This document shows positions 11,945 to 28,772 of a DNA stretch of 39,316 nt, in pieces. Positions within the stretch are counted from its first letter, which is position 1; every line of letters begins with the position of its first letter. The stretch spans positions 1 to 39,316 of the forward strand of contig JAFGLY010000173.1 in NCBI GenBank assembly GCA_016927815.1. The letters run 5' to 3'. Position numbers and translations under genes: made by a program. Origin of the DNA: Deltaproteobacteria bacterium (lineage in GTDB: Bacteria > Myxococcota_A > UBA796 > JAFGLY01). The notes below the pieces were generated by a model. The model did no database searches. It was not told where the DNA came from and was given only the letters and a program-made list of their open reading frames with translations.

Positions 11945-13420
11945 ATGTTTCTGGCCCTGCGCGCCGAGTTCCTCCTGCCCATGACGGAATCGCGGCTCCG
12001 GATCCGCGACGGCTACGTGCTGGCCCAGGGGGACCGCCTCCTCGAGGTCGGGCCTTGGACCCCCGAGGTGGCCGCCCGCCTGGGGAGGCTGGGCGATCGC
12101 CTCGTGGTTCCGGGCACCCCCGACCGCCGCCCCCTGCCCGGACCGGGACTGCTTCCCATGCGGAAGGCCGTCCTGATGCCCGGTTTCGTGAAGGCCCACG
12201 GCCACGACGACGAGCAGTTGCTCATCGGCGTGGCCCGGGACGAGCCTCTGGCCGACTGGCTCGACCACGCCGTCAACCCCCTCGCCCGCTACCTGAGAGA
12301 CATGCAGGAACGGCTGACCGAAGACCTCGGGTGCACCCCCTGGCGGGCCGCCTACCGCATGGCCCGGCTGTGCGACGTCCACTACGGCATCACCTCCAGC
12401 CTGATCCACCACTGCCATGCCAACAAGGTGCGCTGGGAGGACCTGGCGCTGGCGAACGAGGAAGCCGGGACGAGCATGATCATCGCGATCGGCTCGCAGG
12501 ATCGTCACTACGCCGCCGAGATCCTGGACCGACCCGAGGACGCGCTGTCTCGCCTGGACCGGGCCTGGGCGCGCCGCGACGCGTGGGGGGCGACCACCGT
12601 CTGCCCGGGCCCGGACCAGGCCTTCTCCAACAGCCGGGCCCTCCTCGTGCCCCAGAAGGCCTGGGCGCGGGCCCACGGCACGCTGTTCCACCTGCACGCC
12701 TCGGAGGAACCCCGGACCACCGCCTGGTTCCAGGCCGAGGTCGAGCCGGGCCACACCCCCGTGGAGTACCTGGAGTCCATCGGCGTGCTCGACCCTCGGA
12801 CCCTGCTCGCCCACCAGGTCCACTGCGGGCCACGGGACCTGGAGATCCTGGCCCGTCATGGGGTCGGGATCGTGCACAATCCACTTGCGAACACGATCCT
12901 GGGCTCCGGGATGCCCCCGGTGGTGGAGATGCTCGCGGCCGGCATCCGGGTGGCCCTCTCGACCGACGGGTCGGGAAGCGCCGACCACCAGAACATGCTG
13001 GCCGCCGCGCGGCTCGCCTCCCGGTACCAGAAGGCCCGCCTGCAAGACGCCAGCGTGCTGCCCGCCGGGGAGGTCCTGGAGATGATCACGCGGATCCCAG
13101 CCGAGATCCTGGGCATGGACACGGGCGTCCTCGCTCCCGGGATGCGGGCCGACTTCCTCCTCGTGGACCTCACGGCGCCCAACCTGGTACCCACCCGGAT
13201 CGACAACCTGGTGGAGAACCTGGTGTGGGCGTCCGACGGCAACGAGATCGACACCGTGGTGGCCCGGGGCCGGTTGCTCAAGGAGGGAGGGCGGGTGCTT
13301 CCACTGCGAGACGGCACCCGACCCGAGGCGATCGTGGCAGCGGCCGAGCACCTCTCGGAGGGGTTCGCCACCTGGCGTGCCACCGCACCCGAGGTGCGGG
13401 GCACCGGGGCGCATCGGTAG
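11945..13420 (+). CDS. ssnA: SsnA-like amidohydrolase/aminohydrolase
   Basis: This 491-residue metal-dependent hydrolase belongs to the amidohydrolase superfamily (AtzA/TrzN/SsnA/guanine deaminase branch), which removes amino or chloro groups from purine- or triazine-like rings. The expected metal ligands are all visible: His85-x-His87 in VKAHGHDDE, His249 and His251 in LFHLHASEE, His290 and His293 in LLAHQVHCGP, and Asp341 in ALSTDGSGS. A composite N- and C-terminal beta domain ends with GMRADFLLVDL. In E. coli and clostridia ssnA sits with ygfK, mocA, yqeB, yqeC and carbamate kinase in selenium-dependent molybdenum hydroxylase loci. The same partners lie in this window, which supports the SsnA choice over guanine deaminase. 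The true substrate is unknown. The mocA-like gene follows after 4 bases. Confidence 0.78.
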   Translation: MFLALRAEFLLPMTESRLRIRDGYVLAQGDRLLEVGPWTPEVAARLGRLGDRLVVPGTPDRRPLPGPGLLPMRKAVLMPGFVKAHGHDDEQLLIGVARDEPLADWLDHAVNPLARYLRDMQERLTEDLGCTPWRAAYRMARLCDVHYGITSSLIHHCHANKVRWEDLALANEEAGTSMIIAIGSQDRHYAAEILDRPEDALSRLDRAWARRDAWGATTVCPGPDQAFSNSRALLVPQKAWARAHGTLFHLHASEEPRTTAWFQAEVEPGHTPVEYLESIGVLDPRTLLAHQVHCGPRDLEILARHGVGIVHNPLANTILGSGMPPVVEMLAAGIRVALSTDGSGSADHQNMLAAARLASRYQKARLQDASVLPAGEVLEMITRIPAEILGMDTGVLAPGMRADFLLVDLTAPNLVPTRIDNLVENLVWASDGNEIDTVVARGRLLKEGGRVLPLRDGTRPEAIVAAAEHLSEGFATWRATAPEVRGTGAHR

Positions 13421-13424
13421 GCGG

Positions 13425-14015
13425 GTGGACCGGTCCCGACCCGGCACGGGCATCCTGCTCGCCGCGGGCCACGCCGTGCGCATGGGACAAGACAAGCTGG
13501 CCCTCGACTGGGAGGGGGAGCCGATCGTGGCGCGCGCCCTCTCGGTGCTGTCGACCTGCCCGCATCTCGCGGAGATCCTGGTGGTGATCCGTCCCGGGGC
13601 ACGCCTTCCTTTGCCGCCCGGCCGGTGGCGCCCGGTGGAGAACCCGGACGCCCACACGGGCATGGCGTCCTCGTTGAGGGCGGGTGTGGCCGCGGCGGCC
13701 CCCGGGGCTCCCTTCTACCTGCTGGCGCTCGGGGACATGCCGGCCGTACACTCCGGGGTGGCCGACGCCCTGGTCGCGGCCTGGCGGGCGGGCGAAGTCG
13801 AGGCGGTGGTGCCGGTGCACGACGGCCGGCGTGGTCACCCGGTGCTGCTGTCCGGCACCTGGCGGGACGACCTGATGCACCTCGGCGGCGACCGGGGTGC
13901 ACGCGACCTCCTCCTCGCGCGCCAGGACCGGGTGCTCGAGGTGCCGGTGGACGATCCGGGCGTGCTCTTCGACGTGGACCGTGCCGAGGACCTCGCGAGG
14001 GACCGGGTGCGGTGA
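13425..14015 (+). CDS. mocA: MocA-like molybdenum cofactor nucleotidyltransferase
   Basis: The 196-residue protein belongs to the MobA/MocA GT-A-fold family, which transfers CMP (MocA) or GMP (MobA) from the NTP to molybdopterin. The signature is clear: ILLAAGHAVRMGQDKL at residues 10-25 (LAAG 12-15, RMG 19-21, Lys24), then LALGDMP for the metal-binding Asp, and a closing FDVDRAEDL. GTG 13425 is chosen because it follows the upstream stop by 4 bases and gives the normal family length. The frame is open further upstream but would overlap ssnA. CTP specificity (MocA rather than MobA) is inferred from the neighbours, since hydroxylase-type enzymes of the xanthine dehydrogenase family use cytosine dinucleotide cofactor. 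Its 3' end lies antisense to the tail of the larC-like frame. Confidence 0.82.
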   Translation: MDRSRPGTGILLAAGHAVRMGQDKLALDWEGEPIVARALSVLSTCPHLAEILVVIRPGARLPLPPGRWRPVENPDAHTGMASSLRAGVAAAAPGAPFYLLALGDMPAVHSGVADALVAAWRAGEVEAVVPVHDGRRGHPVLLSGTWRDDLMHLGGDRGARDLLLARQDRVLEVPVDDPGVLFDVDRAEDLARDRVR

Positions 14016-15319
14016 CCCCGGGCGCCGGGTGGATCCCCCTCGAGACGCAGCCACAACGCATCGGGCCGGTCGGGGGAGGATCCGTGCTGGCCCAGGCCCA
14101 CGCCGGGTGTCGAGGTCCGGACCGCTGGGGGCAACTCGGGGACGAAGACCGGGGAGAGGGCCCCCAGGAGAGCCGCTCCGGTGGGCGTGAGCAACTCCTC
14201 GTCGATCGGTCCCTCGGCATGCGGGATTCCGTAGGTCTCGAGGATGGCGCGCGTGGCGGGCGCCGGCACCGGGAGCCGGCCGTGCGAGGTCGCAGGCGTC
14301 TGCCCGCCGCCCACCCGGACCGGCGCGACGCAGGCCACGCGGGCGAGGTCCACCGCCAGGTGTTGGAGGGCCAGGGCGGCGCCCACCACGTCCACGAGGA
14401 TGTCCTGGGCCTCGTGCAGGAGCCCTCCGCCCGGGTGCGCGTGGGGGATGCCCCTGCGGTGCGCCTCCAGGTGGTCGCTCCCGGCGAGCCAGCCGTCGTT
14501 TCCCCCCTCGGCCTCACCGCACGCGTCGCCAGGGCCGCCGTCGAGGGACTGCACGTACGGCTTGATGTCGAGGATCGGCGTGCCGTCGTAGAGGTCCAAC
14601 GTACCGGTGACGAGACGGGTCCCTTCGATACGCTCCAGCCGGACCCGGGTGAGCCCGATCGGGCTCGGACGATCCGGCGACCGCGTGGCGAACAGCCCGT
14701 AGCGTCGGCCGTCGTCACGCCACGGTGGACGTACCCAAAGGCTGTAGCCCGCGGAGCGCTCGAGGAACGACAGGACGTACACGTGCGAGAAGGTGCCCAG
14801 GCCCGCGAGGGCCTCGGCGAGTTCCGGGCGGACGTCGATCCAGCACGCCGCCGTCGCCGACCGGTCCTCTGCGGGGGGCTGGTACGGCGCGTGGTCCACG
14901 TACGGCGTGTGCGCGGTACCGATCACGGTCAGTGCCACGGCAGGCGCCTCTCCCGGGTCCGCCGTGCGCGCCAGACCGTGCGCGGCCCGCTCGGCCTGAC
15001 AGAGGATCGCCAGGGCCCGGTGCGCGAACCCCGCATACCCACCCCTCACGTCAACCTTCCGCAGCGTCGTCTCCAAGAGACCCGGGGCTTCGGCGATCGG
15101 CAAGGGCGCACGAGGGGGGGCCTCGACGACGATCCGCCTTGCCGAGAGGCCTTCGGCCAACCGCTCCCGAACGACCTCGATCCGGGCACCGCCCAGGGCC
15201 GATGCGGCCGTACGCATGGCCGCGACGATGGTTCGCTCGGGAGCCCCGAGTCCCAGGAGCGCAGCCGTGAACAGGTCACCGGCCATGCCCATGGCCGGTT
15301 CGATCCACAAAGGTCTCAC
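13835..15319 (-). CDS. larC: LarC-type nickel cofactor protein with inserted TrmO-like domain
   Basis: The 494-codon frame starts at GTG 15319, overlapping the TGA of the upstream reductase (GTGA). Residues 1-120 and about 283-428 together resemble LarC domain 1 (DUF111), the nickel-pincer cofactor maturation protein: GMAGDLFTAALLGLG at 11-25, ILVDVVGAALAL at 307-318, GRLPVPAPAT at 347-356, and LTPTGAALL at 377-385. Between them, residues 127-262 match a TrmO/TsaA (UPF0066) domain, normally a separate tRNA m6t6A methyltransferase: FSHVYVLSFLE at 177-187, LFATRSPDRPSPIGL at 209-223, and DGTPILDIKPYV at 245-256. The second LarC domain (ETNIDDM region) is absent. Codons after about 430 run antisense through mocA and look like read-through rather than folded protein, so the functional C-terminus is probably near base 14030. 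No larA, larB or larE is in the window. Confidence 0.8.
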   Translation of the reverse strand: MRPLWIEPAMGMAGDLFTAALLGLGAPERTIVAAMRTAASALGGARIEVVRERLAEGLSARRIVVEAPPRAPLPIAEAPGLLETTLRKVDVRGGYAGFAHRALAILCQAERAAHGLARTADPGEAPAVALTVIGTAHTPYVDHAPYQPPAEDRSATAACWIDVRPELAEALAGLGTFSHVYVLSFLERSAGYSLWVRPPWRDDGRRYGLFATRSPDRPSPIGLTRVRLERIEGTRLVTGTLDLYDGTPILDIKPYVQSLDGGPGDACGEAEGGNDGWLAGSDHLEAHRRGIPHAHPGGGLLHEAQDILVDVVGAALALQHLAVDLARVACVAPVRVGGGQTPATSHGRLPVPAPATRAILETYGIPHAEGPIDEELLTPTGAALLGALSPVFVPELPPAVRTSTPGVGLGQHGSSPDRPDALWLRLEGDPPGARGHRTRSLARSSARSTSKSTPGSSTGTSSTRSWRARRRSRAPRSPPRCIRSSRQVPDSSTG

Positions 15320-17220
15320 AGGCCCTGACCCGCGGCGATGCCCTGAGCGAAAGCCGACTCGACGTTCGCAGGCTCCGACGCGTCGCCGATGACGAGGATT
15401 TCCGGGGCCAGCCCGGCTGCCTGCTCCGCAAGCGCCCGGTCCGGCACCGTACCGGAGCAGACGATCACGGTGTCGAACGGCGCCATCCGGACCTCCTCAC
15501 CCGCGACGACCGCGTCCACGCCCTCGGGGGTGAACGCCACGATCCGGGTATCGGGCATCAGGTGGATGCGTTTGTCGGCCAGAATCCTGTTCAGGGTCAG
15601 CTTTCGCGAGATCGGGTCCATGTCCGCGCCAATCACGCTCGACCGGCGGCAGGCGACGACGCTCTTGCCCATCGCCGCGACCATCTCTGCGACCTCCACC
15701 CCGACCATGCCCGCTCCGATGACCAGAACCCGATCGCCCCGGATCGGCTTGACCCCCTCGAAGTACTCGTAGGACGTGACGACGTACTGCCGGTCGAGAC
15801 CGCCGATGTCCGGAAGCGATGGACGTGCCCCGGTCGCGACCACCAGGACGTCGGGGTGTTCTTGCTCGACCGTGTCGGCGGTGACCCGCTCGTCGAGCCT
15901 CACCCGCACGCCCGAATGGGCCAGTCTCATCCGCATGCCGTCGAGGACGCGGGACATCGACGTCTTTCCCTGGGGCCGGACGGCGAAGGCGAGTTGTCCG
16001 CCCACGACGTCGTGCTGCTCGAACAGTACGACGTCGTGGCCCCGCCGGGCGGCAGTGACCGCGGCTCCGATGCCCGCGGGCCCGGCCCCGACGACCATGA
16101 CGCGCCGCGGATGTGCAGCCGGTGGAGCGTCCGGCGTGGTCACCCAGGGGTTGGCCATGCACGCGATCGGCCGACCGGACCGGACGCGGGACAGGCAGGC
16201 CTGGAGGCAGGCGCCGCACTGCAGGATGCGATCCGGCTCGCCCTCGATCCACTTGCGGGGGAGGTCCGGGTCGGCGAGCAGCGGTCGCGCCAGGCCCACC
16301 GCGTCGATCAGGCCACGTTCGAAGACGGCGGCAAGGCGGGCCGGGTGACCGAGCCGGCCGGTGCCGATGATCGGCAGGGCCGTCAGGTGGCGGATGGCTT
16401 CGAACACCTCGATCTGGGGCTGCTCCGGCAGGGCCATGTGCCCGAAGTACCAGGCCGGGTTGTCGCACGCGTTCCCGAAGCCCACGTGCACGGCAGCGAT
16501 GCCCAGACCTTCCAGAACCTCGAGGAGCCAGGCCTGGGCCTGCGGATCGAGCCCCCCTTCCAGGAACTCGTGGCCGGAGATCCGGACGAGGACCGGCGTG
16601 GAGCCGGCACCTCCAAGCACGCTGTCGAGCACGGCGCGGGCGAACCGCTCGGGATCCCCCCACCCGTCGGTCCTCCGGTTGGTGCGCCGGGACAGGAACT
16701 GGTGCACCAGGTACCCGTGGCCCATCTGGAGTTCCAGGAAGTCGGTGCCGGTCCGGACGGCGCGCGCGGCCGCCGTGCCGAAGTCGTCGAGGAGCTGCGT
16801 CACCTGGCTCCCGGTCAAGGCCTCGGCCTCGGCTCCGGTCGTGGCACAGGCCACCTCGGACGGCGCCAGGGGCTTCCCACCGATCACCGTCGGGTTCGCC
16901 GCGCATCCGGCGTGGTTCAGGTGAACCGCCACGTGGGCACCCTCCTCGTGCACCGCGTCGACCAGGGTCCGGATCGTGGCCACGTGTCGGTCCTCGAACA
17001 GCCGGAGCTGCCGTGGGTGCTCGATCCCGGAGGGCGAGACGGCCGCCGGCTCCAGGGTCAACAGCCCGGTCCCGCCCTGCGCGATGCGACGGTAGAAGCG
17101 CACCGCTGCCTCGCTCGGCCCGCCGCCCGGCCCGTGAAGGGCGGTCTTGACGGGGGCGAGGACGAAGCGATTCTTCAACGTCCTGCCCGCGAGCGTCCAC
17201 GGATGCTGCGGTGGGTTCAC
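15316..17220 (-). CDS. FMN/FAD/4Fe-4S ene-reductase (2,4-dienoyl-CoA reductase family)
   Basis: The 634-residue protein starts at GTG 17220, behind a strong AGGAGG. Residues 1-330 are an Old Yellow Enzyme TIM barrel (LKNRFVLAPVKT at the start, GHGYLVHQFLS, then IGTGRLGHP). A 4Fe-4S site follows: Cys335-x2-Cys338-x3-Cys342-x11-Cys354. From residue 374 there is a pyridine-nucleotide/FAD module with VMVVGAGPAGIGAA and a second Rossmann motif VLVIGAGMVGVEVAEM. This is the architecture of 2,4-dienoyl-CoA reductase, trimethylamine dehydrogenase and bile-acid or enoate reductases. The substrate cannot be read from sequence. It is co-transcribed and coupled with the larC-like gene, and lies beside ssnA-mocA. 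Flavin ene-reductases are plausible partners of purine or aromatic-ring catabolism, but this is inference. Confidence 0.85.
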   Translation of the reverse strand: MNPPQHPWTLAGRTLKNRFVLAPVKTALHGPGGGPSEAAVRFYRRIAQGGTGLLTLEPAAVSPSGIEHPRQLRLFEDRHVATIRTLVDAVHEEGAHVAVHLNHAGCAANPTVIGGKPLAPSEVACATTGAEAEALTGSQVTQLLDDFGTAAARAVRTGTDFLELQMGHGYLVHQFLSRRTNRRTDGWGDPERFARAVLDSVLGGAGSTPVLVRISGHEFLEGGLDPQAQAWLLEVLEGLGIAAVHVGFGNACDNPAWYFGHMALPEQPQIEVFEAIRHLTALPIIGTGRLGHPARLAAVFERGLIDAVGLARPLLADPDLPRKWIEGEPDRILQCGACLQACLSRVRSGRPIACMANPWVTTPDAPPAAHPRRVMVVGAGPAGIGAAVTAARRGHDVVLFEQHDVVGGQLAFAVRPQGKTSMSRVLDGMRMRLAHSGVRVRLDERVTADTVEQEHPDVLVVATGARPSLPDIGGLDRQYVVTSYEYFEGVKPIRGDRVLVIGAGMVGVEVAEMVAAMGKSVVACRRSSVIGADMDPISRKLTLNRILADKRIHLMPDTRIVAFTPEGVDAVVAGEEVRMAPFDTVIVCSGTVPDRALAEQAAGLAPEILVIGDASEPANVESAFAQGIAAGQGL

Positions 17221-17241
17221 GGTGCACCTCCTGGCGCGGCT

Positions 17242-17276
17242 CTGCCGGATCCTCCGCAGAGGGTGGATTCCGGCAG
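17242..17276 (-). promoter_or_regulatory. Inverted repeat in the leader of the reductase-larC operon
   Basis: CTGCCGGA (17242-17249) and TCCGGCAG (17269-17276) form perfect 8-base arms around a 19-base loop. On the minus strand it ends about 20 bases before the GTG start, just ahead of the ribosome binding site. It could be an operator or a leader hairpin that controls initiation. No ligand or regulator can be named. Confidence 0.35.
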
Positions 17277-17315
17277 GAGAGGGGTCGAACGGAACCCGAC
17301 CGGATCCCTCTGGGG

Positions 17316-17331
17316 CGCTCCGCCCGGAGCG
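17316..17331 (-). terminator. GC hairpin after the sensor-kinase gene
   Basis: CGCTCCG-CC-CGGAGCG (17316-17331) lies 26 bases beyond the stop of the sensor-kinase gene, in the 137-base gap before the reductase operon. Allowing a 4-base loop it is a 6-bp stem. There is no T-run, so termination is tentative. A second small palindrome, ACGGATTCCGT, lies next to it at 17338-17348. Confidence 0.3.
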
Positions 17332-17357
17332 AGGAAGACGGATTCCGTTATCGTCCC

Positions 17358-18650
17358 TCAGCGGTTCGGCCACCAGGTCACGAGCCTCGCCCCGCCGCCC
17401 GGGGCGTCTTCCACCCGGACGCGCCCCTGGTGGGCCTCCAGGACCCGGCGGGTGATGGCGAGGCCCAGCCCCGCCCCGCCGGTGGCCCGATCCCGGGCCT
17501 GCTCCAGGCGGAAGAAGGGTTCGAACACCCGGTCCCGCTGGGGAGCCGGAATGCCGGGGCCGTCGTCCGACACGGTCACCTCCACGCCGCCGTCCACGGC
17601 GCGCCAGGTCACCTCCACCCGACTCCGGGCGAAACGCGCCGCGTTGGCGAGGAGGTTGCCCACGGCGCGGTTGAAGGCCCGTGCATCGGCGTACACCGCC
17701 TGGGGGGCGTCGGGCGCGGGGGCCAGGTCTACGCGCACGCCCTCGGGCAGGGGACCGAGGCGCTCCAACTGCCGCTCCAGGGTGGCGGCCACGGGCACCG
17801 GCTGGAGGGAAGGGGGAGAGCGACCCGCCTCGTACCGGGAGTAGACCAGCAGCTCCTCGGTGAGGGTCTCCATCTCGACGAGGTCGTCCTGGAGCGCCGC
17901 CAGGTGCCGGGAACGATCCCCGTCGCCCCGAGCCATCTGGGCCATCTCGAGGCCGAACCTGAGCCGGGCGATGGGCGTGCGAATCTCGTGGGCCACGGCC
18001 TGGACCAGTTGGCGCTGGTGATCCAGCAGCTCCTGGACTCGCCCGGCCATGGCGTTGAAGCTGCGGACGAGCTGGTTGACCGGGTTGTCCTGGCGGCGCT
18101 CTGGAGCCCGGGCGGCCAGGTCTCCGGCACCGATGCGGTCCGCGGCTCGGGCCAGGTCCGCCAACGCGCGCACCATGGGGCGGGCCAGGGCCACGCTGGA
18201 CACCCCGATCACCCCGACCAGGAGGCACAGGATGACGGCGAGGTCCCGGCCCGTGGGACCAATGTGTGACGGCTCGGGTCCCAGGAGCAGCACACCTCCC
18301 TCAGGGAGAGGAACAGCTGCCTGGAATCCGCCTTCCGCAAAGGCCGTCGCGGGCTGATCCACCTCCAGGGCCGGCCGGAGGGCCTCCGGGATGCGGGGGC
18401 TCGAATCCTCGAGCAGGATCGCGGGCATGCGGGCGCGGTCCGCGATGCGGGCGGCCTGGCGAACGCGCTCGTCGGCGGGTTGGGCCAGGATCTCCTCGTG
18501 AATCTGCGACACCGCCAGGTCCACGAGCGGGGGCCGGGCGGTGTCCAGCTGTCGGTGGATGGACAGCCGCACCACCCCCATGGCCACGGTGAACGCTGCG
18601 ATCACGACGACCAGCAGGCCAAGGAAGATGCGGAGGACGAAGCGGGTCAT
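17358..18650 (-). CDS. RstB/CpxA-like sensor histidine kinase
   Basis: This 430-residue membrane kinase has TM1 at residues 4-27, a periplasmic sensor of roughly 105 residues, TM2 at about 136-157 and a HAMP domain to about 210. The dimerisation domain has the phospho-acceptor His221 in AVAHEIRTPIARLRFGLEM. The ATPase domain has N box NLLANAARFA at 332-341, G1 SDDGPGIP at 361-368 and G2 GGAGLGLAI at 391-399. The HEIRTPIxRLRFxLEM core is most like RstB. ATG 18650 overlaps the response-regulator stop (ATGA), so the two are translated as a pair. It is the last gene of the efflux operon and presumably senses envelope damage or a pump substrate. Confidence 0.9.
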   Translation of the reverse strand: MTRFVLRIFLGLLVVVIAAFTVAMGVVRLSIHRQLDTARPPLVDLAVSQIHEEILAQPADERVRQAARIADRARMPAILLEDSSPRIPEALRPALEVDQPATAFAEGGFQAAVPLPEGGVLLLGPEPSHIGPTGRDLAVILCLLVGVIGVSSVALARPMVRALADLARAADRIGAGDLAARAPERRQDNPVNQLVRSFNAMAGRVQELLDHQRQLVQAVAHEIRTPIARLRFGLEMAQMARGDGDRSRHLAALQDDLVEMETLTEELLVYSRYEAGRSPPSLQPVPVAATLERQLERLGPLPEGVRVDLAPAPDAPQAVYADARAFNRAVGNLLANAARFARSRVEVTWRAVDGGVEVTVSDDGPGIPAPQRDRVFEPFFRLEQARDRATGGAGLGLAITRRVLEAHQGRVRVEDAPGGGARLVTWWPNR

Positions 18651-19378
18651 GGGGCCACGGGCGCGGGTCGGGCCAGGAGGTAGCCCACGCCGCGGACGGA
18701 CTTGATGCGCCTGGGATTGCGGGCATCGTCTCCCAGTTTCTTGCGGAGCCTGAGGATCCGGAGATCGATCGAACGGTCCAGGCCGTCCCAGTCGGTCCCC
18801 TTGAGCTCCCGGTAGATGGCCTCCCGATCCAAAGGCTCCCCGGCGTGCCGGGCCAGGAGCCACAGGAGGTCGAACTCGGCGGTGGTGAGGTCCAGTTCCT
18901 CCCCGTTCAACAAAGCGGCCCTGCGGCCGGGGTCCACCACGAGGTCTCCGAGCTCGACGGCCGTTTCCGAGGAGGTCGGAGCGCGGCCCGGACTCTGGGA
19001 TTCCGGATTGATCCGCCTCAACAGGGTGCGCACCCGAGCCAGGACGAGGCGGGGGCTGGCAGGCTTGGCCACGTAATCGTCGGCTCCCAGCTCCAGGCCC
19101 ACCACCTCGTCCACCTCGTCCCCCAGAGCTGAGAGCATCAGGATGGGGCCCGGGTAGCGCTCCCGCACCTGCTTGCACACGGACAGGCCGTCCAGCCCGG
19201 GCAGCATGAGGTCCAGGATCACCAGGTCGGGCAGCTCGTCGAGGATGCGGTCCACCGCCCGGTCTCCCCGGGTCTCCACCCGGACGTCCAGCTCATCGCT
19301 GGCCTGGAGGTACTCCTGCATCAGTCGGGCGAGGCGAAGGTCGTCCTCCACGAGGAGGATGCGGCTGGGCGCGTTCAT
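18647..19378 (-). CDS. OmpR-family response regulator
   Basis: The 243-residue protein has a receiver domain at 1-120 with the acidic pocket Glu11-Asp12-Asp13, phospho-acceptor Asp56 (LVILDLMLPGLDG) and Lys105-Pro106. A winged-helix DNA-binding domain begins at about 145 and closes with the typical RRIKSVRGVGYLLA. It should bind promoter DNA when phosphorylated by the overlapping kinase. It follows the outer-membrane factor gene by 15 bases, so autoregulation of the whole pump operon is likely, though no repeated binding site is evident. Confidence 0.93.
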   Translation of the reverse strand: MNAPSRILLVEDDLRLARLMQEYLQASDELDVRVETRGDRAVDRILDELPDLVILDLMLPGLDGLSVCKQVRERYPGPILMLSALGDEVDEVVGLELGADDYVAKPASPRLVLARVRTLLRRINPESQSPGRAPTSSETAVELGDLVVDPGRRAALLNGEELDLTTAEFDLLWLLARHAGEPLDREAIYRELKGTDWDGLDRSIDLRILRLRKKLGDDARNPRRIKSVRGVGYLLARPAPVAP

Positions 19379-19393
19379 GGGGCGGCTCCGCCT

Positions 19394-20755
19394 TCAGCGT
19401 ACCAGAGAGAGGATGTCGCTTCCCAGGGCTCGGAGGAGGTGGAGGGTGTCCACCTGGGCCTGGAGCTCGGAGGTGAGGCGGTTCACCTCGGCCGCGAGGC
19501 GGTTGGCCTCGGCATCGCTCACCTCCAGGGACGAGCCGGCCCCCTGGGCGTACGCGGTCTCGGTGAGCGCGACCGCCTCCCGGGCCAACTCGGCACGCTC
19601 CACCGCGAGGGACACGGCCGCCAGAGCGGTCTGCTGGTCCCGGACGGCCTGGCGTACCGCCTGGCCCGCCTGGATCTCGACGTGCTCCCGTTCGATCTCC
19701 GCCCGCCTCATGGCGGCCCGCTTCTGATCCAACGCACCGAAGCGGGACAGGGAGAAGACGGGCACATCCAGGCTGGCCACCGCGGTCCAGCGGGAGCGGT
19801 CGTCGGAACCCAGGGCGCTCATCTCGGTGAACGTGTAGGAGCCCTGCCAGGCCAGGGACAGGCCGGGCAGGAACCCGGTGCGGGCCAGCGCCAGATCCGC
19901 CCGGGCCAGGTGCGCCCGGCTCCGAGCCACCCGCACGTCCTCCCGGCGGTCCAGAGCCACGTCCACCATCTGCTCGGGGGCCAACGGGGGAGGCGCGATC
20001 ACGGGGGCGTCCCCCGGGGTGGGCAGGCCCCCGACGCCGGTGAGCACGCCCAGGGCGTCCCGGGCGGACTCGAAGGCGAGTCGCGCGCTCAGGAGATCCT
20101 GCCGGGCCTGGGCCAGGTCCGTGCGAGCACGGACCTCGTCGATGCGCAGGCCGACCCCGGTCGCCAACCGCTTCTCGGCCACGTCCAGGTGGCGCATCGC
20201 CGCGTCCACCCGCTCCTCCTGCATGGCCACGAGCGCTCCGGTGGCGCGGGCCGCGTACCAGGCCCGCGCCACTGCGTGCAGCAGTTCCTGCCGGGCCTGC
20301 GCCACCGTGAGCCGCGCCAGATCCCTGCCTTCCCGCGCCACCCGCGCCGTGGCCCACGTCTCGGGATCCAGGACGGAAAGGCTGGCCGTGAGCGATCCGG
20401 ACACGGTCTCCTGCTGGCGCACCACCATGGGCTCGCTGTCCGGGGCGTCCGGGACCTCGATCCCCATCGCCTCCAGCATGTCGTACAACGCCGACATGCT
20501 GGCACCCAGGTCCACCGTGTCCTCGTGGTCCGCGTGGGACCAGGTACCACCGGCGGAGACCATGGGCACGAGGAGGCCGCGCGCCTGCCGGAGCTGGCCG
20601 TCCGCCTGGTCCAGCGTGGTCTGGAGGGCCTTCAGGGTGAGGTTGTGCTGGTCGGCGGCCCGGAGGGCCTCCCCCAGGGAGAGGATCTCTCCAGCCCGAG
20701 CGGACGGGACGGGGCCCAGGAGCAGGCAGCAGGCCAGGGCGAGGATGCTACGCAT
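19394..20755 (-). CDS. TolC-family outer-membrane efflux factor
   Basis: The 453-residue protein starts at ATG 20755 inside the 3' end of the pump gene (8-base overlap). Residues 1-21 are a signal peptide with an Ala-Arg-Ala cleavage site. The mature protein is two repeats of long amphipathic helices rich in Ala, Arg, Glu and Gln (for example LARLTVAQARQELLHAVARAWYA and the later REHVEIQAGQAVRQAV region), the TolC barrel-tunnel pattern. The length fits the OprM/TolC family. It should form the outer-membrane exit duct of the tripartite pump encoded by the two preceding genes. Confidence 0.9.
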   Translation of the reverse strand: MRSILALACCLLLGPVPSARAGEILSLGEALRAADQHNLTLKALQTTLDQADGQLRQARGLLVPMVSAGGTWSHADHEDTVDLGASMSALYDMLEAMGIEVPDAPDSEPMVVRQQETVSGSLTASLSVLDPETWATARVAREGRDLARLTVAQARQELLHAVARAWYAARATGALVAMQEERVDAAMRHLDVAEKRLATGVGLRIDEVRARTDLAQARQDLLSARLAFESARDALGVLTGVGGLPTPGDAPVIAPPPLAPEQMVDVALDRREDVRVARSRAHLARADLALARTGFLPGLSLAWQGSYTFTEMSALGSDDRSRWTAVASLDVPVFSLSRFGALDQKRAAMRRAEIEREHVEIQAGQAVRQAVRDQQTALAAVSLAVERAELAREAVALTETAYAQGAGSSLEVSDAEANRLAAEVNRLTSELQAQVDTLHLLRALGSDILSLVR

Positions 20756-23700
20756 GGGTCGGGCTCCTCGAGGCGCCGGCGGCCTGGAACTCCAGCGCCT
20801 CCGTCTCCAGGTCCTTGCGTGCGAAGAACGTGTAGAGCACGGGCACCACGAACAGGGTGAGCAGGGTGGCGGTGGTGAGCCCTCCGATCACCGCCCGGGC
20901 CATGCCGGACCACTGCTCGGCCCCTTCGCCGATCTCCAAAGCCAGGGGCACCATGGCCAGGACGGTGGTGAGGGTGGTCAGCAGCACCGGCCTCAAGCGC
21001 ATCCGGGCCGCCTCCCGGATGGCCTCGACGCGGTCGCGGCCCTGGTACCGGAGCTGGTTGGCGGCATCCACCATGACGATGCCGTTGTTGACGGCGATGC
21101 CCACCAGCATGATCGCGCCGATGAGCCCCGACACGTCCAGGGCCGTGCCGGTGACCAGGAGGACGAGGATCACCCCGATGATGGCCATGGGAACGGAGAA
21201 GATGATGATGAAGGGCTGTCTCAAGGACTCGAACTGGCTGGCCATCACCAGGTAGACCAGCAGGATGGAGACGAGCAGGGCGAGGCCGAGCTGCTGGAAC
21301 GACTCGGCGAAGTCCTCCGCCGATCCGCCCACGTAGGCGGTGAAGCCGTCCGGCTTCTCCACCAGGTCCACCGCCTCGCTCACCTGCTGGATGCCCCGGC
21401 GCATGTCCTTCCGGTGCGGGTCGCCCTGCTGGTCCTGCCAGGTGTCCGCCAGGGTGACCTGCAGGGTGCTGGTGCGCTGCTGGTCGACGCGGGTGATGGC
21501 CACGGGGCCGAGATCGCGCCGCACGTGCGCCACCGTGGACAGGGGCACGGTGGCCCCACCCGAGGTGGCCAGGGGCATGCGGAGCAGGGCGCCGACGTCC
21601 TCACGCCAGGCCCGTTCCCATCGTACCTTGATGTCGAACTCGTCCCCGCCGTCGGAGAAGAAGCCGGCGGTCCGCCCCTGGAAGGCCGTGGCCACGGCGC
21701 GGTTCAGGTTGTGGCCCGACATGCCCAGCTGGGCAAGCTTGGGCCGGTCCAGGGTGACCTCCAGCTGGGGCTGCTGGTCCGCGAGGGAAAAGGTCACCTC
21801 CGCCACCTCCGGCAGCCGGGCGAGGCGTTGCCTCAGCTCCATGCCCAGGATGCGGGCCTGGTCGAGGTCGTGGCCCTTGAGCTCCACCTCCACGTCCGAG
21901 CTGCCGGTGGGGCCGAAATGGCCGCCCACGTGGACCTCCACCCCCGCCAGGTCAGCGGTGGCCTCGCGGATTGCGGCCTCGATCTCCGACCGGCCGCGTT
22001 CCCGTTCCCCGGGGGGCACCAGGACCAGTCGGGCCGTGCCCTCGTTGGCTTCGCCGCTGAAGATGGCCTGGATGCCGGTGGCCGCCCCAGCCTGGACCAT
22101 GAGGTGCTGGAGCTCCTCCGGCCGGAGTGCAGTCCGGACGCGCCGGGTCACCTCGTCCACCCGGGCCCAGGTCTCGGCAAGGGAGCTTCCCACCGGGGCC
22201 TTGATCTCCACGAAGGACTGCCCGTTGTCCTGCTGGGCCATCAGGTCGGTCCGGAGCGTGAGGGCCAGGAGCCCGGACACGAAGCCGGCGCCCACGAAAC
22301 CCAGAATCACGTACTTCCGGTGGGACAAGGCCCACTCGAGCCACCGGCCATAGTGCTCGACCAGCCTGCCGAGGCGCCTGCTGGCCTTCTCGCCGCCCTG
22401 GCCGGACCGCTTCAGGAACCGGGAAGAGGCCAGCGGTACGAAGGACATGGCCACCACGAGGGAGACGGTGAGGGAGAAGCAGATGGTGACCGCCATGTCC
22501 CGGAAGACCATGCCGGCGAACCCCTGCACGAAGAGCACGGGGACGAACACCGCCAGGGTGGTGAGCGTGGAGGCGGTGATGGCGGTGCCCACCCCCTTCG
22601 CGCCGCTGGCGGCGGCCACCCAGGGGCCCTCGCCGCCCTCCCGCAAACGAAAGATGTTCTCCAGGACCACGATGGCGTTGTCCACCAGCAAGCCCACTGC
22701 CAGGGCGAGCCCTGCCATGGACAGCACGTTCAGGGTCATGTCCGCCTGGTCCATGACCCCGAAGGTGGCGACCACCGAGAGGGGGATGGCCATGGACACG
22801 ATCAGGGCTGCCCGGAGATCTCCGAGGACGAACAGCAGCACCGCAAAGGTCACGCACACGCCGACCAGGGCCGTGCTGGCGAGGTTGTTCAGGGACCGCT
22901 TGATGTTGCCTGCATTCTCTGCCACCACCGTGAGCCGGGCTCCCTCCGGCAGGTCGGCGTTGATGCCCGGCAGGGCGGACAGAACCCCCTCGACGGCCTG
23001 GACGGTGTTCTCCCCCGACTGGCGTCGAAGCGCGAGCTGCACCACGGGAACCCCATCGATCTGCTCGATGGAGGTGGCCTCCTGGTAGGTGTCGTGAATG
23101 CTGGCCACCTCCCCCAGCCGAACGGGGCGGGTGCCCGTGGGCTGGCCCGCGCCGTTGGTGAGGACCTTGCGCCCCACCACCACTTCCCCGATGTCGGCCA
23201 GAGAGGCGTAGCGCCCCTGGGTGTGGATCGTGAAGGAAAGAGGCTCCTGGTCGATCGTTCCGCCGGGCTCTTGCAGATTTTCTGCGTACAAAGCCGATAC
23301 GACCGTGTTGACGTCGAGCCCCGTGGCCTCCACCCGCAAGGGATCCAGGTCCACGTGGATCTCCCGCACCAGCCCCCCGGAGACGTTGGCCGAGGCCACG
23401 CCCTCCACCCGTTCGAGGCGCGGCTGGACCACGTCCTCCGCCAGCCGGCGCAGCTCCATCAGGGGAAGAGAACCCTCCAATGCGAGGAACATCACGGGCA
23501 TCATGTCCGTGGAGAAGGCGAAGACCAGGGGGTCCGAGGCGTCGTCCGGGAGGGCCGACTCGTACATGTCCAGGGATCGGCGGATGTCCGTCTCCGCCTG
23601 ATCCATGTCCGTGCCCCAGGCGAACTCGACCGAGACGATGGAAAGGCCCAGGGACGAGGTGGACGAGATCTCCTCCACGCCTTCCACGCTGGCCACGGCC

Positions 23701-23906
23701 GTCTCCATGGGACGGGTCACCAGGGTCTCCATGTCCTCGGGGCTGGCCCCCGTGTAGGTGGTGACCACCAGGATCGCCGGGAACGACAGGTCGGGCATCA
23801 GGTCGAGCTTGAGCCGCGACAAGGAGAACAGGCCGAACAGGAGCACCACCAGCCACACCACGCCGAAGGTGATCCCGCGCCGGACCGAGAGGGACGAGAG
23901 GTTCAC
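20748..23906 (-). CDS. RND efflux pump inner-membrane transporter
   Basis: At 1052 residues this is the normal length of AcrB/HAE-1-type pumps: 12 membrane helices and two large periplasmic loops that drive proton-coupled export from the periplasm. The N-terminal helix has RRGITFGVVWLVVLLFGL. The helix-4 motif reads GLLVDNAIVVLENIF, with Asp409-Asn410 where AcrB has the Asp407-Asp408 proton relay. The second half ends with the matching helix-10 motif GIAVNNGIVMVDAANQLR and the final FVVPVLYTFFARK. The GTG start 23906 overlaps the adaptor stop (GTGA). The single relay Asp is seen in many RND relatives, so function is still expected. The substrate class (drugs, metals or lipids) cannot be decided. 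Confidence 0.93.
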   Translation of the reverse strand: MNLSSLSVRRGITFGVVWLVVLLFGLFSLSRLKLDLMPDLSFPAILVVTTYTGASPEDMETLVTRPMETAVASVEGVEEISSTSSLGLSIVSVEFAWGTDMDQAETDIRRSLDMYESALPDDASDPLVFAFSTDMMPVMFLALEGSLPLMELRRLAEDVVQPRLERVEGVASANVSGGLVREIHVDLDPLRVEATGLDVNTVVSALYAENLQEPGGTIDQEPLSFTIHTQGRYASLADIGEVVVGRKVLTNGAGQPTGTRPVRLGEVASIHDTYQEATSIEQIDGVPVVQLALRRQSGENTVQAVEGVLSALPGINADLPEGARLTVVAENAGNIKRSLNNLASTALVGVCVTFAVLLFVLGDLRAALIVSMAIPLSVVATFGVMDQADMTLNVLSMAGLALAVGLLVDNAIVVLENIFRLREGGEGPWVAAASGAKGVGTAITASTLTTLAVFVPVLFVQGFAGMVFRDMAVTICFSLTVSLVVAMSFVPLASSRFLKRSGQGGEKASRRLGRLVEHYGRWLEWALSHRKYVILGFVGAGFVSGLLALTLRTDLMAQQDNGQSFVEIKAPVGSSLAETWARVDEVTRRVRTALRPEELQHLMVQAGAATGIQAIFSGEANEGTARLVLVPPGERERGRSEIEAAIREATADLAGVEVHVGGHFGPTGSSDVEVELKGHDLDQARILGMELRQRLARLPEVAEVTFSLADQQPQLEVTLDRPKLAQLGMSGHNLNRAVATAFQGRTAGFFSDGGDEFDIKVRWERAWREDVGALLRMPLATSGGATVPLSTVAHVRRDLGPVAITRVDQQRTSTLQVTLADTWQDQQGDPHRKDMRRGIQQVSEAVDLVEKPDGFTAYVGGSAEDFAESFQQLGLALLVSILLVYLVMASQFESLRQPFIIIFSVPMAIIGVILVLLVTGTALDVSGLIGAIMLVGIAVNNGIVMVDAANQLRYQGRDRVEAIREAARMRLRPVLLTTLTTVLAMVPLALEIGEGAEQWSGMARAVIGGLTTATLLTLFVVPVLYTFFARKDLETEALEFQAAGASRSPTHA

Positions 23907-25021
23907 GGCGTGGCCTCCAGCACCTGGACGGCCTGGCCGTCCGCCACGCCGTACTGGCCGCGCACCACCAGCCGCTCACCGACCTCGAGCCCCGACGTCA
24001 CCTCGCGCAGGGACCCGGAGCGGATCCCCAATTCCACCTCCCTTTCCTGGGCCCTGCCCTCGCCGTCCACCACGAAGGCCTTGCGGAGATCCTGCCCCGG
24101 TCGAGCCCGTGCCAGGAGCACCGGGTCCATCACCAGGGCCTGCTCCGGCGCCACCACGACCTGGGTGCGCCGATCCACCGTGATCTCCGCCCGCCCGAAC
24201 ATGCCCGGCTTGAGCTTGTGGACCCCCGAAGGGTCTGCCGGGTTGGGCAGTCTCACCTCCACCGTGTTGGTGCGGGTGGTGTCCTCCAGGTAGGGGTACA
24301 CCCGCGTGACCCGGCCTTCGAAGACCTCGTCGGGCAGCGACTGGACCCTGATCCGGACCGGTTCCCCGACCTCCACCTGCATGGCGTCGGTCTCGCTCAT
24401 GTCCAGATCCACCTTCAACGGGTCCACGGCGAGGACGCTGCAGAAAGGAGACGCCGGGGAGGCCTGATCCCCCAACGACAGGTCCAGGTGGGCCACCACC
24501 CCGGAGATCGGGGCGACCACCGCCGCGTCTCCCGCGTTGATGGAGAGCTGATCCAGGCTGGCCTTGAGCGCCCGGCGCTGGGCCTCACTGGCTGCAAGCC
24601 CGGCGCTGGCCTGGTCGAAGACCTGCTGGGTGATGACCCCCCCGGCCAGCAGCTCTCGGCTCCTCTGGAGATCCTCGGTCTGGGTGCGGATCTGGATGTC
24701 CAGCGCCTCGATCTGGGCGGACATCTGCTCCAGGCCCTTGTCGAGCGCGTCCCGACGGACGAGCGCCAGGCGCTGCCCCTTCTGCACGCTGTCCCCGTCC
24801 CGGACGGAGAGGGACACGATACGGTCGGCGATCCGGCTGTAGACCCGCACCGTGGACCAGGGTTCCAGGTCGGCGGCGTACACCACGGTCCGCGCGAGAT
24901 CCCGCTGCGTCACCGGTTCGACCCGCACGGGGACCGTGTGCCCGTCCTCGGAATGCTCGCGCGGTCCACAGCCCGCCAGGGACAGGAACGCCGACCACAT
25001 CAACCACTTCGCACGACCCAT
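23903..25021 (-). CDS. RND periplasmic adaptor lipoprotein (HlyD/AcrA family)
   Basis: The 372-residue protein starts at ATG 25021, behind GGGAGGTG. A leader ends at lipobox LAGC (Cys18), anchoring it to the inner membrane. The order of domains is the adaptor standard: beta-barrel and lipoyl half-motif (WSTVRVYSRIADRIVSLSVRDGDSVQKGQRLA), a helical hairpin around residues 85-165 rich in Gln/Glu/Leu, then the second lipoyl half (VVAPISGVVAHLDLSLGD), barrel and membrane-proximal domain ending LEVGERLVVRGQYGV. It links the RND pump to the TolC-like duct. It is the first gene of the pump operon and is coupled to the pump by a 4-base overlap. Confidence 0.92.
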   Translation of the reverse strand: MGRAKWLMWSAFLSLAGCGPREHSEDGHTVPVRVEPVTQRDLARTVVYAADLEPWSTVRVYSRIADRIVSLSVRDGDSVQKGQRLALVRRDALDKGLEQMSAQIEALDIQIRTQTEDLQRSRELLAGGVITQQVFDQASAGLAASEAQRRALKASLDQLSINAGDAAVVAPISGVVAHLDLSLGDQASPASPFCSVLAVDPLKVDLDMSETDAMQVEVGEPVRIRVQSLPDEVFEGRVTRVYPYLEDTTRTNTVEVRLPNPADPSGVHKLKPGMFGRAEITVDRRTQVVVAPEQALVMDPVLLARARPGQDLRKAFVVDGEGRAQEREVELGIRSGSLREVTSGLEVGERLVVRGQYGVADGQAVQVLEATP

Positions 25022-25091
25022 GGACACCTCCCGCAGGTCGCACAAGGCTAGTCCCGGCAGGAGGCGTGGACCGTGGCGATTCGGTCTCGGA

Positions 25092-25100
25092 ATTGTATCA
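25092..25100 (-). promoter_or_regulatory. Extended -10 promoter candidate for the efflux operon
   Basis: On the minus strand TGATACAAT overlaps the stop codon of the hybrid kinase and lies about 70 bases before the adaptor ATG. It fits the TGn plus TAnAAT extended -10 form, and no good -35 hexamer is visible. In DNA this GC-rich such a match is unusual. It would let the pump be transcribed apart from the kinase gene. Confidence 0.4.
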
Positions 25101-27155: not shown

Positions 27156-28772
27156 ATGCGACCCCGGATCCTCGTACGGGGCGCCGGAGAGATCGCCTCC
27201 GGCATCGCCCACCGCCTCTTCCGTTGCGGGCTGCCGGTGGCCTGCACCGAGAGGAACCCGCCCACGGCGGTCTGCCGCATGGTGGCGTTCGCCACGGCCG
27301 TGACGGACGGCAGCACCGAGATCGAGGGCGTGGCCGGGCGCCGCTGGGAGCTGGCCGACGCCTGGCGCCTCGGAGAGGAACGGCTCGACCACGTCCCGGT
27401 GTTCGTGGACCCGGAGGCCTCACTCCTGGACACCTGGAAGCCCGACATCCTGGTGGACGCCCGCGGGCTGGGGCAACCCTCGGACACCCGGCGCCACCAG
27501 GCACACCTGGTGATCGGGCTCGGTCCGGGCCTGCGCGCAGGCCGCGACGTGGACGCGGTGATCGAGACACGGCGGGGCCATGACCTGGGGCGCATCCTCA
27601 CTGAGGGAGAGGCGCTGCCGGACACCGGGACCGCCGGTTTCATCGGAGGCTGCGGACCCGAGCGGATCCTCCGGGCACCGATGGACGGCCGGTTGGACGC
27701 CGTCCGGGTCATCGGCGAACGCGTCGAGCGCCAGGAGACCGTGGCCCGGGTGGGCGGCCGGGAGGTGCGGGCCGCCTGTGCCGGGGTCCTGCGCGGGCTC
27801 CTGCCCTCCGGCATGCCGGTGATTGCGGACACGAAGATAGGCGACGTGGACCCCGTGGGCGATTTCGCCGCCTGCTTCTCGATCTCGGACCGAACGCGCG
27901 CGCTCTCGGGCGCCGTGCTGGAGGTGGTCCTGGGGTGCTTCCCCGCGGCCCACGACGCCTCCTGCATTGTCTGGCCCGATCCGGACTACCGGCTCCTGGA
28001 CCCCACGGGGCACGCTCGGTACGTCCACCTGGTGGGCGGTGGCGGCAAGACCACGCTCCTGTACGGCTGGAGCCGCGGGCTCGCCCGCGAGGGTCACCGC
28101 GTGGTGTGCGCCACCACCACCCGGATCCGCTACCCGAGCCCGGATCAGTGTCCTCGGGTCGTGCTGGAACCCGATCCGGACCGTCTCGCCCGGCGAGTGG
28201 CCGAGGTGCTGCCGCCGGCGAACCGCCTGGCCGTGGTCCGGGAGTGGGTGCCAGGCAGCGCCAAGCTGCTCGGCCATCCGCCCGCCACCCTCGACACCCT
28301 GCTGGACAGCGGGACCGTCGACCGGATCCTGGTGGAGGCGGATGGCAGCGCTCAGCGGCCCCACAAGGTGCACGCCCCCCACGAACCGGTGGTCTCCACC
28401 CGGGCGGATCTCGTGGTGGTCCTCGTCGGGATCGACGTACTGGGCCACCCGGCCACCGAGACCACCGTGCACAACGCCGATCTCTACCGTCAGCGCCTCG
28501 GTCGTCTTCCCGAAGATCTCGTCCATCCGGGAGACCTGGCCGTCTCCCTCCTCCACCCGGAAGGGTGGCTCCGAGCGGTTCCCGTGGGCGTCCCCGTCTC
28601 GCTCCTCGTCACCCACGTGCGCTCACCGGACCAGTGGCAGGATGCCCACGCCGTGGCACGCGCCGTGCTCTGCCGCGACTCGAACCGCCGCGTCCGCTGC
28701 GTGGTGGCAGGGGATCTCGCGGGATCGGAGCCTCGCCTCGCGCTCCTCGGTCGATGCGCGCCGGACGGCTAG
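27156..28772 (+). CDS. YqeB-YqeC fusion, selenium-dependent Mo-hydroxylase accessory protein
   Basis: The 538-residue protein starts at ATG 27156. Residues 1-265 match YqeB (EF2563 family), a Rossmann-like protein that begins ILVRGAGEIASGIAHRL, with FIGGCGPERILRAP at 162-175 and VIADTKIGD at 222-230. Residues 288-538 match YqeC, a P-loop protein beginning YVHLVGGGGKTTLLYGW (Walker A 294-300), then ATTTRI and ILVEADGSAQRPHKVHAP. Both families occur as separate genes in loci for selenium-dependent molybdenum hydroxylases, where they are thought to help build or insert the selenium-containing cofactor; their exact chemistry is unproven. Here they form one chain. The stop overlaps the stop of the facing carbamate kinase by 4 bases. 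Confidence 0.87.
   Translation: MRPRILVRGAGEIASGIAHRLFRCGLPVACTERNPPTAVCRMVAFATAVTDGSTEIEGVAGRRWELADAWRLGEERLDHVPVFVDPEASLLDTWKPDILVDARGLGQPSDTRRHQAHLVIGLGPGLRAGRDVDAVIETRRGHDLGRILTEGEALPDTGTAGFIGGCGPERILRAPMDGRLDAVRVIGERVERQETVARVGGREVRAACAGVLRGLLPSGMPVIADTKIGDVDPVGDFAACFSISDRTRALSGAVLEVVLGCFPAAHDASCIVWPDPDYRLLDPTGHARYVHLVGGGGKTTLLYGWSRGLAREGHRVVCATTTRIRYPSPDQCPRVVLEPDPDRLARRVAEVLPPANRLAVVREWVPGSAKLLGHPPATLDTLLDSGTVDRILVEADGSAQRPHKVHAPHEPVVSTRADLVVVLVGIDVLGHPATETTVHNADLYRQRLGRLPEDLVHPGDLAVSLLHPEGWLRAVPVGVPVSLLVTHVRSPDQWQDAHAVARAVLCRDSNRRVRCVVAGDLAGSEPRLALLGRCAPDG

Follow-up and report, generated by a model that had tools for sequence, protein, structure and literature searches.

A LarC nickel-insertion domain hosting a complete TrmO-type domain in a deltaproteobacterial genome

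The locus and its neighbours

The window, meaning the whole 39,316-nucleotide stretch analysed here (contig JAFGLY010000173.1 of the metagenome-assembled genome GCA_016927815.1), carries on its reverse strand one open frame in which a TrmO-type domain lies within the first domain of LarC (LarC1). This gene, its parts and its neighbours are:

11945..13420 (+): amidohydrolase (SsnA/guanine deaminase-like), with 63% identity to its counterpart in the yqeB cluster of a sister genome, G001
13377..14015 (+): MocA-like molybdenum cofactor nucleotidyltransferase, convergent with the nested gene (Pfam/NCBIfam)
13835..15319 (-): nested LarC1-TrmO-LarC1 gene, a 494 aa frame with a GTG start
13835..14023 (-): read-through tail, residues 433-494, antisense to the 3' end of mocA
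14024..14434 (-): LarC1 C-terminal part, residues 296-432 (PF01969 positions 121-234, alignment, AlphaFold2)
14435..14953 (-): complete short TrmO-type domain, predicted to bind AdoMet, residues about 123-295 (PF01980, TIGR00104, identity to the relative P0003, AlphaFold2 model)
14441..14473 (-): C-terminal tail motif of TrmO, HLxxHxxGIPH, residues 283-293, which also ends stand-alone TrmO proteins
14561..14683 (-): putative AdoMet-pocket residues R213, D242 and K253, with Q147 at 14879-14881 (alignment to the A. fulgidus protein)
14954..15319 (-): LarC1 N-terminal part, residues 1-122 (PF01969 positions 1-109, alignment, AlphaFold2)
15316..17220 (-): OYE-type flavin oxidoreductase (BaiCD/mycofactocin-OYE-like), 634 aa, upstream of the nested gene
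27156..28772 (+): YqeB-YqeC fusion, for maturation of Se-dependent molybdenum hydroxylases (TIGR03309 and TIGR03172, both over cut-off)

The OYE stop codon overlaps the start codon of the nested gene as GTGA, and an OYE gene also follows TrmO at another locus (L102). The nested gene comes last in a reverse-strand directon (13835-27086) of mostly overlapping genes, which include those for a hybrid histidine kinase, an RND efflux pump (adaptor, permease, TolC), a response regulator, a histidine kinase and the OYE. YqeB and YqeC form one 538-aa frame in the window and two genes overlapping by 4 bases in G001.

The local neighbours of the nested gene are Mo/Se genes (mocA, yqeBC) and the RND efflux operon, with no nickel genes among them; a carbamate kinase gene lies further on with YqeB-YqeC. 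Together with selD, encoded in the same genome, the amidohydrolase, mocA, YqeBC and carbamate kinase correspond to the genes given for Se-dependent molybdenum hydroxylases (SDMH) in the passages of PMC2276186 consulted, which do not include LarC or TrmO. The adjoining genes and selD, as well as the occurrence of another TrmO clade with Mo/W genes, speak for a reading in which the nested gene serves hydroxylase maturation as mocA and YqeB-YqeC do, and not nickel. However, it lies on the strand opposite to mocA and is coupled to OYE, its TrmO falls in a nickel-associated clade and not in that with Mo/W genes (see below), and the sister cluster in G001 consists of the amidohydrolase, mocA, yqeB and yqeC without LarC, TrmO or OYE, which means that the fusion does not regularly belong to the Se/Mo cluster. 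A role in molybdenum hydroxylase maturation is rated as quite improbable.

Architecture of the nested protein

Searched against Pfam, the 494 aa frame matches both Ni_insertion (LarC, PF01969; E=2.5e-32, 112.9 bits over a cut-off of 22.1) and TrmO_N (PF01980; E=3.3e-30) within one protein, and chance is excluded as the cause of these matches. With NCBIfam models the TrmO equivalog TIGR00104 scores 102.3 bits, over its cut-off of 93.25, and the LarC1 equivalog TIGR00299 88.2 bits, under its 90-bit cut-off. A profile search of the genome DNA splits LarC into positions 1-109 (14972-15310) and 121-234 (14042-14410) of 375, with the TrmO_N match between them at 14540-14863. Only 11 profile positions (109 to 121) are missing across the insert and so LarC1, as judged from its profile, is almost unreduced at the insertion point. 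A linear LarC-TrmO fusion and a frameshift artefact were also considered, and were ruled out by the single open frame with LarC on both sides.

The original prediction, of a TrmO-type domain nested inside LarC domain 1, is confirmed by the Pfam matches and the split profile; its view of the flanks as LarC domain 1 is upheld by PF01969 and by alignment to canonical LarC, and the second LarC domain (LarC2) is missing as it had stated, there being no match to profile positions 235-375. Its placing of the TrmO part at residues 127-262 was right as to the domain and too narrow as to its extent, which reaches about residue 295 when the C-terminal tail is counted. The nested architecture is genuine and, as far as tested, unreported, a literature search having found no paper that treats LarC together with TrmO.

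By alignment to the LarC proteins of the order, the insert sits in the loop between the conserved H114-G115 (HG) and H302-E303 (HE), both junctions being in frame and at domain borders. The N-terminal part of LarC1 stops just past the conserved AHG motif (VHG here, residues 113-115) and the C-terminal part opens at an LHE motif where canonical LarC has HFHEVG. Over the whole of LarC1, the nested protein retains 40 of the 51 columns that are conserved in canonical LarC; E stands in place of D7 and HFHEVG has lost its VG, two changes which, from the alignment, may have altered the domain. For structure prediction LarC1 and TrmO were each given an alignment of their own, since alignments of the two together came out misaligned. 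Using LarC relatives, AlphaFold2 gave high confidence for residues 1-117 (pLDDT 81-95 for the N-terminal part) and for most of 300-430, across the insert, so that in the model the LarC1 fold is re-formed across it. Foldseek of this LarC1 model against the PDB gave no significant match, and the solved LarC entries found by sequence (12bi and related) were not among its matches.

LarC2 is the part of LarC that binds and uses CTP. Since it is absent, a complete CTP-dependent insertase is ruled out for the nested protein, which by its domain content and its score under the TIGR00299 cut-off is not a full LarC, the enzyme whose CTP-assisted reaction inserts nickel into the pincer nucleotide (PMC11796402).

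The TrmO part is whole. The tail SDHLEAHRRGIPHAH agrees with the C-terminal end found in stand-alone TrmO proteins, several of which (P0003, L041-L047, L051 and L059) run from HLxxHxxGIPH through a few residues to a stop, and because the insert ends with this natural tail of short TrmO proteins it represents an entire nested protein of the stand-alone type. The closest TrmO relative, P0003, is 47% identical to the insert; its gene overlaps a ferredoxin-nitroreductase fusion gene by 4 bases (L036, 8993-10554). In the A. fulgidus protein AF0241, residues Q22, R82, D111 and K122 contact AdoMet (PMC4132733), and all four are kept as Q147, R213, D242 and K253, the correspondence of Q147 to Q22 depending on the shifting of a gap in the printed alignment. 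The pocket reads RPSPIG where at least 90% of alignment rows have RPNPIG. Folded with a TrmO alignment, residues about 130-260 form a confident barrel that matches AdoMet-bound AF0241 (2nv4, TM 0.82 by target) and P. aeruginosa TrmO, and AdoMet binding is predicted from the kept residues and this fold. The DPRxxY C-terminal domain, which E. coli TrmO requires for m6t6A (PMC4132733), is absent from the nested protein sequence, and by that measure the protein is not an E. coli-type TrmO.

Among the relatives, five TrmO proteins with the GIPH tail (L042, L043, L044, L047 and L059) have N-terminal extensions of very roughly 75-130 residues, and the four of these that were checked (L042, L043, L044 and L047) gave no Pfam match there. 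Selenocysteine insertion or stop read-through was also considered for TGA-bearing relatives, and was rejected for those looked at (L007, L010), where the stop is outside the TrmO domain.

Coding statistics are positive in all three segments (LarC1, TrmO, LarC1), with like G+C and codon use, and about 430 coding-like codons run without a stop. Over the last 60 or so codons, which lie opposite mocA, the frame has a non-coding score of -0.28 bits per codon, whereas the best antisense frame, on the mocA side, reaches +0.59; the probable end of the functional protein is therefore close to residue 432. These features bear on two rival explanations. Insertion of a TrmO gene into a decaying LarC paralogue, leaving a functionless product, would suit a fusion found once, the loss of LarC2, a 3' end that reads into mocA without a stop of its own and a LarC1 score far below that of the canonical copies; against such an accident stand the in-frame junctions, both at a loop, the long stop-free coding-like stretch and the GTGA coupling to OYE, and we think it improbable to a marked degree. 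An assembly join is unlikely. The specific artefact, TrmO reads joined into a LarC gene, would draw on the fragmentation of the MAG into 216 contigs, but both ends of the insert keep the reading frame and fall exactly at domain borders, its G+C and codon use equal those of its host, and neither half comes from the LarC or TrmO found elsewhere in the genome (41-48% identity), which leaves that artefact with only a very slight probability. A chimera of those two genes was likewise rejected, as both are merely 41-48% identical and the genome's own TrmO belongs to a different clade.

Distribution and the clade of the inserted domain

Among 63 searched genomes of the order, one, the window's own, gave a match spanning both domains, so that the count of genomes sharing the nested order, which the original prediction had called for, comes to a single MAG; none of the other genomes searched has TrmO inside LarC. 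LarC itself is present in 48 of 61 genomes of the order. A scan of TrmO loci covered 84,980 species, each represented by a single genome, and among the matches listed, the best 80 TrmO loci, none has LarC adjoining TrmO. With the nested protein as single query a contig scan gave no match, and plasmid and phage collections held no record covering 80% of the query, the places listed there matching the TrmO part. The genome also encodes LarA, LarE, an intact LarC, another TrmO and SelD, and because it has these normal LarA, LarC, LarE and TrmO the nested gene is an extra LarC paralogue; its LarC1 scores far below the canonical LarC copies.

A maximum-likelihood tree of 91 TrmO domains, built on few columns and with the bootstrap not settled, places the nested TrmO in a clade of 20 (100/95 support) that does not include the genome's own TrmO. 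Of the 18 database members of this clade, 6 have nickel genes close to TrmO, against 1 of 45 outside it (LarB, at L067). The difference has a Fisher p=0.0016, or 0.006 without L068, in a post hoc test on small numbers with varying flank lengths. The six are L045, with LarE 35 bp upstream of TrmO, L048 (CooT, CbiQ, CbiO), L052 (CooT), L055 (HypA-E), L079 (HypB) and L068 (CooT and HypB). The GIPH tail of the nested TrmO is common to L045 and nine others. At L048 (7995-8663, Desulfosporosinus sp. BG) the TrmO homologue has a 94-residue tail holding 30 histidines, and is a likely nickel-binding TrmO.

Another TrmO clade has WtpC, ModA/B and MoaE as neighbours, the clade contrast for Mo/W alone being not significant (p = 0.32). 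Short TrmO homologues adjoin tungstate/molybdate transporter genes or MoaE at L073, L086, L099 and L119 and at L098, L103, L107 and L112, which suggests a second, Mo/W-linked group. The archaeal short TrmO paralogues studied are without a known m6t6A product (PMC4132733).

Possible function and known counterparts

Since nickel genes are associated with the clade of the nested TrmO, the likely role of the protein is nickel handling. The reading tentatively preferred, at somewhat below even confidence, is that of an extra LarC paralogue whose LarC1 hosts an entire TrmO for bifunctional nickel handling, the protein being neither the main tRNA methyltransferase nor a complete insertase; it rests on one MAG, with no whole-protein relative from which selection on the fusion could be read. 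The two LarC1 halves would fold back together, with the TrmO barrel as an AdoMet-binding domain of its own tethered beside the most conserved LarC1 residues. Nickel or a nucleotide of the nickel-pincer kind would be the ligand of the LarC1 part. The TrmO part would use AdoMet to modify this ligand, the carrier of the ligand or a target protein, possibly together with the OYE flavoenzyme, whose gene is translationally coupled. We infer the nickel link, the ligand, the methyl transfer and its target for the nested protein, the nickel link from the clade and the neighbours of clade members. The original prediction had supposed that the TrmO-like fold serves cofactor chemistry. The nickel-gene clade (6/18 vs 1/45) lends this independent support, so that the view is upheld in part, but ordinary nickel-pincer cofactor maturation is unlikely for the nested protein on its own, given the lack of LarC2 and the intact LarA, LarC and LarE encoded separately in the genome.

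Alternatively, LarC1 could be a leftover host or a dimerisation scaffold for a TrmO doing ordinary RNA or protein methylation unrelated to nickel. A TrmO above the TIGR00104 equivalog cut-off with its AdoMet residues kept, and a LarC1 that has no partner domain and has lost part of HFHEVG, would fit this; yet LarC1, although divergent, keeps those 40 of 51 conserved residues, the DPRxxY domain that E. coli TrmO needs for m6t6A (PMC4132733) is absent, another TrmO exists in the genome and nickel genes are neighbours within the clade. We regard this scaffold role as unlikely.

A broader reading, doubtful but worth stating, is that short TrmO proteins with the GIPH tail are unrecognised AdoMet-dependent assembly factors of nickel centres (nickel-pincer, hydrogenase, CO dehydrogenase), of which the nested gene would be the telltale fusion, making or removing a methylated nickel cofactor. 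LarC1 would then bind the nickel cofactor and carry the methyltransferase within its ligand loop.

Short TrmO paralogues occur widely. A fusion to a nickel-insertion protein, taken with the clade link to LarE, HypB, CooT and CbiQO, would assign these orphan proteins a role open to testing and bring methyl transfer into the maturation of nickel cofactors. The fusion may thus point to an unrecognised methyltransferase in nickel-cofactor assembly, and the gene itself shows that the HG/HE loop of LarC1 can accommodate an entire domain.

Three known systems bear comparison. With LarC (PF01969/TIGR00299) the nested protein shares the LarC1 fold and the motifs GxxGD, AEx..HG, HE, PAPAT and TPTGAA, but it has TrmO between HG and HE, has lost the VG of HFHEVG and all of LarC2, and falls just short on TIGR00299 (88.2 vs 90 bits). 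With the short TrmO/TsaA/UPF0066 proteins that have no DPRxxY domain (AF0241, PDB 2NV4) it shares the class VIII beta-barrel, the four AdoMet-contact residues and DGTPILDIKPY, and differs in sitting within LarC1, in RPSPIG for RPNPIG, in the HLxxHxxGIPH tail and in belonging to a nickel-linked clade of its own. The stand-alone TrmO proteins of that clade (L045, L048, L052, L055 and L079; 100/95) are encoded by separate genes, whereas here the TrmO domain is found inside LarC1.
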